From Clostridiales bacterium (GTDB lineage Bacteria; Bacillota; Clostridia; Lachnospirales; Lachnospiraceae), in the NCBI GenBank assembly GCA_012839295.1, contig DUNO01000025.1, positions 1 through 43,152 of the forward strand: a stretch of 43,152 bases of DNA, given 5' to 3'. Below, piece after piece: positions 8,064 through 38,198 of this stretch (positions are counted from its first letter, which is position 1; each line of letters starts with the position of its first letter). The notes beneath the pieces are model-generated. The model saw only the letters and a program-made list of their open reading frames with translations. It did not search any database and was not told the origin of the DNA. Both the position numbers and the translations under genes were made by a program.

Positions 8064-8069
8064 TATAAT
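8064..8069 (+). promoter_or_regulatory. TATAAT box directly before the tandem repeats
   Basis: TGCTATAAT (8061-8069) is an extended -10 element placed immediately before the first triple-hairpin unit. No good -35 hexamer lies at 16-18 bases. Each repeat unit ends in TTTCTATAATATAAG, so the same TATAAT recurs at the unit junctions (8164-8169 and 8261-8266). Transcription from here would carry the repeats as the 5' leader of the downstream reductase gene. Confidence 0.4.
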
Positions 8070-8070
8070 T

Positions 8071-8297
8071 AATATAAGTTATGAGAAGTTGCTTTTTAAC
8101 TTCTCATAAAAGGCGCTGCATTTGCGCCGTGCATCCCGATTATAGAAAGATGTACTTACTTTCTATAATATAAGTTATGAGAAGTTGCTTTTTTAACTTC
8201 TCATAAAAGGCGCTGCATTTGCGCCGTGCATCCCGATTATAGAAAGATGTACTTTCTTTCTATAATATAAGTTATGAGAAGTTGCTTTTTAACTTCT
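8071..8297. repeat. Tandem 96/97-bp triple-hairpin repeat (2.35 copies)
   Basis: Units lie at 8071-8166 (96 bp), 8167-8263 (97 bp, one extra T) and 8264-8297 (partial). Within a unit three stems are perfect. Stem 1 is TTATGAGAAGTT / AACTTCTCATAA (8079-8090 / 8098-8109 in unit 1). Stem 2 is GGCGC / GCGCC (8112-8116 / 8124-8128). Stem 3 is ATTATAGAAAG / CTTTCTATAAT (8139-8149 / 8159-8169). The partial third copy stops inside the second arm of stem 1. A diverged single copy that largely keeps the stems sits at 38071-38198, also just upstream of a metabolic gene. It contains no ORF and is either a mobile palindromic element or a repeated leader RNA. Confidence 0.95.
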
Positions 8298-8343
8298 GGT
8301 TCCGCAATTACCTGTGGATATCTGATTATGAGGAGGAATTGCT

Positions 8344-16751: not shown

Positions 16752-18044
16752 ATGAAAAAGAAATTATTAGCAGCATTATTAGCAGGAGTCCTTGCGCTCA
16801 CAGCAGCTGGTTGTGCAGGCGGAAATAGCCAGCCTGATAAGAGCAAGGATTCTGTGAGTCAAGGGGCAGCAACGGGTGAAAAGCAGGATCTGGTTATTAT
16901 GATCACTAATCCTGGAGAGGTAAACAATGCTGTAGAGAAGAAACTAGTAGAAAAGCTGGGTGATAAGTATAATATCATAACGAAGACCTGGGATTCAGCA
17001 TCGGTAGAGCAGACCGTGAAAACAGCTGCCGCGGCGAATGAACAGATTGATCTGGTGCAATACTGGCCGAACCAGATGAATAGCTTCACGGAGGTAGGTA
17101 TCGCAACAGACCTGACCCCCTATATGGATGAGGAGTGGAAAGCAACGTTTAACGATGGCGTTCTGGATATTGGCACATATGATGGGAAACTTTATAATGT
17201 AGCCTATAAAACGGTGTATCCGGCAATGCTGGTTGATTTAGAAGTCACCAGGGCAGCAGGCATTAAAGATGAAGAAATCAAGGATCAGATGACATGGGAA
17301 GAGTTTTGTGATCTGTGCAGGAGAATTAAGGAGAACTCAGATGCTTCAGGAGCTGGAATTCCGGATACTTATGCTTGCTGGCTGACTAGAAATTCAGTAA
17401 TGCAGGTTTGGGATACGGACGAGGAGTTAGACAAATGGAATGCAGGAGAAGTGTCATTTAAGGATGAGCATATTGTAAAAGCGTTCGACCTGGTAAAGGA
17501 TGTGTTTGAAGAAGGACTTTTCTATCCGGGCGAGGGCGCTCTTGCCGTAACACAGGACCAACTTTATGGAGCAATCTCTTCCCACAAAGTGGGCTTTATA
17601 TTTGAACCTACTACTGCCATGAAAACAACCATTGATAATTCCGGGCTAAAAGAGTATAAGATTTGTGATTTTCCGGCCATGGGCAAGAATCCTACCAATG
17701 CTCTTTTGGGAGGCTGTGACGGATACTTCATTCCCACTAGCTCTAAAAATGTGGAAGGTGCCATTGAAGCCATGAAGTATCTTACCAGCGAAGAGATTAT
17801 GACGTTCCGCGCAGAAGGTGGACAGGTACCATGTGCCAAAATTGCGAGTGGGGCAAATGTAGATACATTCTTCATGGAGTCCATATCAAGATGCTCCAAT
17901 CAGATTTATCCTACAGAAATCATCAATGTAGGTGCTGAATTATCTGATTATATGCAGAATCAAATGCCTGCAAATTACATTTACAATGGGAAAGCGTCGT
18001 TGGATGAACTGGAAGAACTAAGACAAGCCGCAATAAATAAATAG
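16752..18044 (+). CDS. Sugar ABC transporter substrate-binding lipoprotein
   Basis: This is an extracellular solute-binding protein of family 1, 430 residues from ATG 16752, which AAGGAGAGG precedes by five to six bases; the in-frame TTG at 16731 is upstream of that site. A lipoprotein signal ends LTAAGC, with Cys21 to be lipidated. The mature protein starts with a flexible Gly/Ser/Asp/Lys-rich spacer. Motifs such as QIDLVQYWPNQMNSF and LTPYMDEEWKATFNDG are typical of oligosaccharide binders. It leads the operon with two permeases and a GH78 enzyme, so a rhamnosylated oligosaccharide is the probable ligand. A stem after its stop may favour higher expression than the permeases. Confidence 0.92.
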   Translation: MKKKLLAALLAGVLALTAAGCAGGNSQPDKSKDSVSQGAATGEKQDLVIMITNPGEVNNAVEKKLVEKLGDKYNIITKTWDSASVEQTVKTAAAANEQIDLVQYWPNQMNSFTEVGIATDLTPYMDEEWKATFNDGVLDIGTYDGKLYNVAYKTVYPAMLVDLEVTRAAGIKDEEIKDQMTWEEFCDLCRRIKENSDASGAGIPDTYACWLTRNSVMQVWDTDEELDKWNAGEVSFKDEHIVKAFDLVKDVFEEGLFYPGEGALAVTQDQLYGAISSHKVGFIFEPTTAMKTTIDNSGLKEYKICDFPAMGKNPTNALLGGCDGYFIPTSSKNVEGAIEAMKYLTSEEIMTFRAEGGQVPCAKIASGANVDTFFMESISRCSNQIYPTEIINVGAELSDYMQNQMPANYIYNGKASLDELEELRQAAINK

Positions 18045-38070: not shown

Positions 38071-38198
38071 TTCTATAATAAAAGTTATGAGAAGTCGCCT
38101 TTAACTTCTCATAAAAGGCGCCGTACTTGCGTCGTGCAAAGTGTGCCCCAAGGGGTGCACCGATTATAGAAAGATGCACTTAATTTCCATAATATAAT
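38071..38198. repeat. Dispersed copy of the triple-hairpin repeat
   Basis: This single copy matches the tandem units at 8071-8297. Stem 1 TTATGAGAAGT / ACTTCTCATAA is perfect. Stem 2 is GGCGC / GCGTC with a G-T wobble. Stem 3 ATTATAGAAA / TTTCCATAAT has one mismatch. A short extra stem, GTGTGCCCC / GGGGTGCAC, is inserted around 38140-38160, replacing the plain linker. As in the other locus, it begins right after TATAAT (38073-38078) and ends shortly before a metabolic gene. The rest of the gap (37863-38070) is AT-rich regulatory sequence with no gene. Confidence 0.9.

Follow-up and report, generated by a model that had tools for sequence, protein, structure and literature searches.

The stretch of DNA analysed here (43,152 nucleotides, called the window) carries an array of three-hairpin units ahead of one gene and a diverged copy of the same unit ahead of another. 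An earlier note had considered three explanations for this arrangement, namely a repeated 5' leader RNA, a portable promoter-leader cassette and a non-autonomous palindromic mobile element. The locus raises the question of whether its paired structure belongs to an RNA or to a piece of DNA that moves, and, in the latter case, how it might move.

Architecture of the repeat

At the first locus (window positions 8073-8265) two units of 96 and 97 bp follow each other head to tail, and a third unit is cut after stem 1. This arrangement, described before as two full units and one partial unit, was recovered in the sequence itself, by blastn and with a covariance model, which matched at 8069-8171 and 8165-8268 (repeat steps of 96 and 97). 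The features of both loci are as follows.

8073-8168, + strand: unit 1, 96 bp, from the core TATAAG up to the TAA preceding the next core; boundaries from tandem junctions and uninterrupted sites
8079-8109, + strand: stem 1 of unit 1 (arms 8079-8090 and 8098-8109), the left-end palindrome; from fold and covariation
within 8079-8109, + strand: 5' arm of stem 1, TTATGAGAAGT, resembling a dif right half-site
8112-8128, + strand: stem 2 of unit 1, GGCGC / GCGCC; from fold and covariation (both-side changes in 3/5 pairs)
8139-8169, + strand: stem 3 of unit 1, the right-end palindrome; from fold and covariation (both-side changes in 9/11 pairs)
within 8139-8169, + strand: 3' arm of stem 3, CTTTCTATAA(T), resembling a dif left half-site
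8158-8185, + strand: tandem junction, 28 bp, arm-core-arm ACTTTCTATAA-TATAAG-TTATGAGAAGT; 21/28 identity to Bacillus subtilis dif
8169-8265, + strand: unit 2, 97 bp, stems as in unit 1
8266-8312, + strand: unit 3, truncated; stem 1 alone, then GGTTCCGCAATTACC
38075-38195, + strand: dispersed copy, long-linker subtype; whole-genome search 85.7 bits, E 2.8e-15
38141-38160, + strand: extra linker hairpin of the dispersed copy, GTGTGCCCC AA GGGGTGCAC

In the intact units the stems are, in order, TTATGAGAAGTT/AACTTCTCATAA, GGCGC/GCGCC and ATTATAGAAAG/CTTTCTATAAT, and each unit ends in TAATAT. All three are perfect in unit 1, as had been claimed. Its + strand fold gave z-values of -7.4 (DNA) and -6.9 (RNA) and none of 200 shuffled sequences was as stable; for the other strand the values were -6.7 (DNA) and -5.9 (RNA). 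The sequence GGTTCCGCAATTACC behind stem 1 of unit 3 is perhaps the decayed right end of another stem-3 type, left after an internal deletion.

The diverged copy some 30 kb away is equally genuine. Two details of its earlier description have to be changed: its stem 3 contains two non-pairs in 11 instead of a single mismatch, and its additional linker hairpin is no novelty of this copy, since 16 of 81 deduplicated copies in the own genome belong by length to a long-linker subtype (at least 114 bases) and those that were read carry such a hairpin. The flanking genes had been named correctly. Oxidored_FMN (old yellow enzyme type) and GH2 glycosidase domains are encoded beside the two loci, which both lie upstream of these genes and in sense.

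Units within arrays share a single core, CTATAATATAAG. The 3'-most unit was the weaker match in 10 of 15 internal arrays, as if newer copies entered 5' of older ones, and 15 arrays prove nothing in this respect. Internally deleted derivatives were found at two loci (L027, L041). An array in the related genome G012 (L235, contig C117) has its stem-2/stem-3 part repeated several times inside one element.

Copy number and distribution

The picture of two loci gives way to a family with more than 100 matches in the own genome (G000; 6.36 Mb in 82 contigs). With blastn we obtained 66 matches at E<=10. A home-made covariance model, built from 38 own copies and therefore giving rough E-values, returned at least 128 matches at E<=1 and, of these, at least 114 at E<=0.01; these counts contain at least one shadow hit on the opposite strand as well as the second units within arrays, and they are lower bounds because 150 of 3225 first-look candidates were scored. 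The alignment underlying the model comprised 38 of 41 extracted own sites; L006, L039 and L043 with their atypical or truncated right ends were left out. At least five contigs of this genome (C34, C80, C52, C36 and C58) start or finish inside element copies, so that the assembly may have collapsed or shortened some arrays.

Among 61 genomes surveyed, the own included, 12 had matches at E<=0.01. Here at most 65 candidates were scored per genome (65 matches for the own genome), and the counts are again lower bounds: at least 40 matches in G012, 19 in G016, seven in G031, three in G021, two in G014 and one in G029, all members of the same genus. G001, G007 and G010 gave a single weak match apiece. 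For 24 of the 33 other genus members, including the large genomes G002, G004 and G006, no match at E<=0.01 was present among the candidates scored. Outside the genus there was a single weak match in G038 (5e-4) and another in G056 (0.006). No exact element pattern was found in viral contigs, and blastn against phage and plasmid records yielded no match. The Rfam search of the window returned no family at the gathering threshold, the best match below threshold being csRNA (E 0.036 for 401 bases), and the PMC full-text literature searched held no description recognisable as this family. Taken together, these data indicate that the unit of about 97 bases is a dispersed three-hairpin family nearly restricted to one genus and patchy within it.

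Other repeats were seen in the same genomes. Window positions 17613-17801 (L153; G000:C57:65612-65800) hold a second dispersed repeat, parts of which match G012 over short lengths at several sites (C114, C46, C270, C142, C276, C135). Locus L084 of G010 consists of other short hairpins (AACAGAAACAG...CTGTT repeats), and at L086 of G001 there is a stem-3-like hairpin pair (GATTATAGGAACACGCTTTTCGTTCCTATAAT) without stems 1 and 2.

Compensatory changes and mismatch symmetry

Across the 38 aligned copies of the own genome, 12 of 33 tested pairs were changed on both sides, and none of 500 shuffles reached the observed values. Stem 3 contributed most of these changes (9/11 pairs), followed by stem 1 (2/11) and stem 2 (1/5). 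In a set of 29 copies, to which other species contributed 27, both-side changes occurred in 14 of 28 pairs and in every stem (4/12, 3/5 and 7/11 for stems 1, 2 and 3). This check, for which the covariance model had been suggested, was positive, and all three stems covary between species. When stem 3 was followed through the 40 best own copies, 55 compensated cells stood against eight one-side changes. Even in the 27 weakest own matches, where Watson-Crick pairing was down to 0.79-0.84, compensated cells remained above shuffles. A possible pseudoknot of the linker GTGCAT with the stem-3 loop was also inspected and rejected; 78-87% of the cells were paired, but no pair was changed on both sides.

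The mismatches that do occur are symmetric. G-T and A-C mismatches numbered 13 and 17 in the 38 aligned own copies (p 0.58), 78 and 72 in 87 own matches including two opposite-strand shadows (p 0.68), and 20 and 17 in the 29 cross-species copies (p 0.74). A fourth count from other genomes (23:15) holds opposite-strand shadows and a duplicate, and our conclusions use the other three sets. A G-U pair is not tolerated above A-C, which speaks against a functional + strand RNA. Pairing is kept through sequence change, and it is kept at the DNA level.

Position relative to genes

For 81 own copies (87 cmsearch hits, from which tandem second units and opposite-strand hits were removed by hand) we scored the surrounding open reading frames, which were defined by a simple rule without a gene caller. 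The next downstream frame lay in sense to the element in 39 cases and antisense in 40, and two were without a call. Seventy-eight of the 81 copies were outside called frames; two of the three frames with a copy inside are about 200 bases long. With this ratio, the sense placement of both window loci before their genes needs no functional reason. The expected position ahead of start codons did not show up, and the leader reading falls with it; the same orientation counts, together with the Rfam result and the missing G-U preference, speak against the promoter-leader cassette. At one locus (L043; G000:C18:123753) the copy is cut off after the linker and directly adjoins a gene start, and the product of this gene resembles, by eye, a pyruvate formate-lyase activating enzyme.

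Insertion sites

Twelve own loci had both flanks on one stretch of G012, and ten own loci, L122 and L147 not among them, were read in alignment with this genome (matching stretches about 66-84% identical). Four own loci are uninterrupted in G012 (L141, L028, L042 and the right-truncated copy L130), and the entry points follow CAATAA (L141), ACATAA (L028) and CTATTA(TA) (L042). At L030 the left edge is clear (GGATAA) and the right edge unclear. The orthologous intergenic region of G012 lacks the window array, in an alignment that does not fix the edges of the array, and the alignment at L133 is not clean. At L113, L142 and L149, and likewise at L140, which was read on its own, G012 carries an element in the corresponding place, so that some insertions are old. 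In G016 the intergenic region of L141 harbours an array in the opposite orientation.

Over 38 sites the left-flank consensus is ATAATA, whereas right flanks are conserved only as TAT and a preference for purine. It can be seen that the element enters behind a sequence whose last bases are ATAA or similar. The statement that both loci begin after TATAAT finds its explanation here, for this motif reflects the insertion target plus the element ends and no promoter that the element carries.

We found no general target-site duplication in 30 copies; the best of 792 tests of offset and length reached z = 3.1. For this comparison, flanks ending in TTCCnATAATA were excluded, and L025 and L028, each preceded on the left by another unit, were included. 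Two copies, L028 and L042, look different. There the left flank of the target stands on both sides of the occupied site and equals the unusual stem-3 arm of the copy, so that, taken alone, these loci resemble duplications of about 9-11 bp. Across 69 copies, a test for a match between the left flank and the own stem-3 arm gave permutation p-values of 0.0004 (10-base arm) and 0.0024 (outer 7). When L022 (a missed tandem), L098 (a possible remnant) and L028 were removed, p rose to 0.012 and 0.042 (66 copies), and the copy-specific match is weakly supported. Judging from L028 and L042, stem 3 might even adopt the sequence present at its target.

A dif-like junction

Where two ends are joined, the left arm comes from stem 3 and the right arm from stem 1, and with the 6-bp core TATAAG between them they form an arm-core-arm arrangement resembling dif, at which chromosome dimers are resolved in bacteria. 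A common type reads GCTTCCTATAA-TATAAG-TTATGAGAAGT. The dif site of B. subtilis is ACTTCCTAGAATATATATTATGTAAACT according to excerpts of PMC3025954. Six junction types agree with this distant reference at 17-21 of 28 positions (one type at 17) in what is a post hoc comparison. Among 147,686 28-base segments of own sequence (74 kb), seven reached at least 20/28; all of them are element ends, at five sites, and in the 43-kb window the same holds for three of three. In the control genome G007, 6 of 798,920 segments reached this level, one of them at 23, and in G012 stretches it was 8 of 1,342,274, of which two are element ends by eye. From these control rates about one chance segment is expected in the own set, where seven were seen, and chance dif-like segments are not rare.

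The dif site of the host was not found. A candidate in G012 (21/28) was dismissed, since it sits inside an open reading frame. In G007 a 28-mer at C1:1464044, AATTCTTAGAAGATATAATATGTAAACA, has 23/28 identity to B. subtilis dif, but the switch in GC skew is about 210 kb away, and a derived pattern led to no consistent site in 19 genus genomes. A XerD-like recombinase with integrase domains is encoded in 8/8 genomes searched and scores below the curated cut-off of the model in all eight; that of the host has about 290 amino acids. A second, genus-conserved recombinase of about 350 amino acids is present in the seven genomes compared, with an integrase domain in the G000 copy.

Beyond ATAATA, target left flanks resemble the element arm weakly at best (42 flanks; p 7e-4 and 0.003 with two control sets). 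For 24 flanks ending in TAA, into which one tandem copy had slipped, the p-value was 0.065, and a first left-arm test on 22 flanks gave 0.10. Right flanks compared with the right arm showed no peak.

Discussion

Of the three explanations considered at the outset, the mobile element has stood up. Dispersed copies, uninterrupted orthologous sites, random orientation, internal deletions and patchy occurrence mark the unit as a non-autonomous, palindrome-ended element, and we regard mobile DNA as highly probable. The mobilising enzyme is unproven.

As best mechanism we tentatively put forward, at a rather low probability, a putative Xer-type recombination of hairpin half-sites. The unit would move in folded single-stranded form (or else as a cruciform or a circle), and its two end palindromes would act as self-complementary half-sites, each pairing with the complementary arm of its own hairpin. 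A Xer-type tyrosine recombinase of the host would then exchange one strand at the border of left arm and core. Chromosomal partner sites would match just the inner left arm (ATAA) and the first core bases, and entry beside an existing copy would produce tandem arrays sharing one core. Insertion where left arm and core meet, with a few core bases matching, fits such a strand exchange by a single recombinase. Against the mechanism it must be said that no host dif was found and that the targets are weakly arm-like at best on the left and not at all on the right. That a gene-free unit of about 96 bp multiplies via the dimer-resolution enzymes of its host at near-random ATAA sites is, in this full form, unlikely in our estimate.

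Two other routes of mobility must be weighed against Xer-type exchange. The unit might resemble REP/REPIN or PATE elements and be mobilised in single-stranded form by a Y1 HUH transposase of the IS200/IS605 or RAYT kind, which would cut at the right end and, on the left flank, behind ATAA(TAT). The hairpins at both ends, the conserved 5' target beside a nearly free right flank, the intergenic dispersal and the lack of a general duplication would all suit such an enzyme, which explains target and hairpins as well as Xer exchange does. The hairpin pairs of G001 and the hairpin arrays of G010 recall REPs, and Y1 genes (PF01797) occur in 11 of 16 genus genomes searched, among them G012 (three) and G021, G014 and G029 (one each). 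However, three of the four element-rich genomes, G000, G016 and G031 with at least 114, 19 and seven element matches, had no PF01797 match at E<=1e-5 in their gapped assemblies, G013 has five Y1 matches without an element match, and a GTAG-like tag was not noticed by eye. A transposase could be hidden in the gaps of the 82-contig assembly, and we give this explanation a low probability as a whole. No more probable to us is a MITE that belongs to a conventional DDE insertion sequence, its subterminal inverted motifs being TATA(AG)TTATnnGAAG and its parent lost or lying in unassembled DNA. The small size, the intergenic scatter, the internally deleted derivatives, the similar motifs inverted at both ends (by eye) and, taken alone, the apparent duplications at L028 and L042 fit this idea. 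It is opposed by the 30 copies without a general duplication and by the fact that no parent with matching ends was seen among the at least 128 model matches of the own, gapped genome; moreover, stem 3 varies in sequence with its pairing kept, unlike a fixed transposase-binding repeat.

The remaining alternatives concern the pairing itself. During replication, imperfect palindromes can be corrected by template switching, and the compensatory changes might have been made in this way without selection in an old dispersed palindrome. Strand-symmetric mismatches and the ratio of 55 to eight in stem 3 fit such correction, but dispersal, precise insertion and the conserved core are left unexplained, and correction may act together with mobility; by itself we consider it quite improbable. 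A structured RNA dispersed in cassette form, be it a 5' leader, a riboswitch-like element or an sRNA, would account for the stable fold, the covariation and the sense position of both window loci ahead of a gene. Orientation (39:40), mismatch counts (13:17, 78:72, 20:17), the absence of an Rfam family at threshold in the window and a linker-loop pseudoknot without any double change contradict it, so that a leader or sRNA was ruled out as a working candidate and retains at most a very slight probability.

Several known systems share traits with the element. In integrons, the folded single strand of attC gives double-stranded half-sites and structure is kept over sequence, as here; attC is one hairpin read by IntI, whereas our element has two end hairpins and a third between them. 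BOX and RUP differ from it in sequence and modules, and RUP carries a target duplication, which our element in general lacks. Like it, these two families of Streptococcus pneumoniae are structured small intergenic repeats inserted into one another, as described in the available part of PMC10969869. REP/REPIN sequences with their RAYT (Y1) are, according to excerpts of PMC3116915, PMC2817692 and PMC3733652, likewise short, intergenic, non-autonomous palindromes of high copy number; our element differs by three distinct hairpins per unit of about 96 bp, by unit-length arrays with a common core and by a main host genome in which no Y1 gene was found. IMEX form a further such system. The attP of CTXphi is composed of palindromic sites that fold when the DNA is single-stranded and are similar to dif on its XerC side only, and CTXphi, like our element, has foldable palindromic sites and no recombinase of its own; IMEX are, however, phages or islands of kilobase size entering at dif, whereas our element is gene-free, about 96 bp long and found at many AT-rich sites (PMC5357621, in the portion available).

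If Xer-type exchange were the true mechanism, a selfish repeat family would live off the most conserved recombinases of bacterial chromosome maintenance, and short palindromes of this sort could spread without a transposase. The element might then stand for a new class of bacterial mini-element whose ends are the two self-complementary half-sites of a dif-like site and whose folded strand is a ready substrate, an outcome to which we assign little likelihood. On a conservative reading, we have described a repeat family that had no match at threshold in Rfam (search of the window) and was not recognised in the PMC literature searched. Its covariation at the DNA level could readily be taken for that of a structured RNA, and the count of G-U versus A-C mismatches is a simple test that separates DNA-level from RNA-level pairing.
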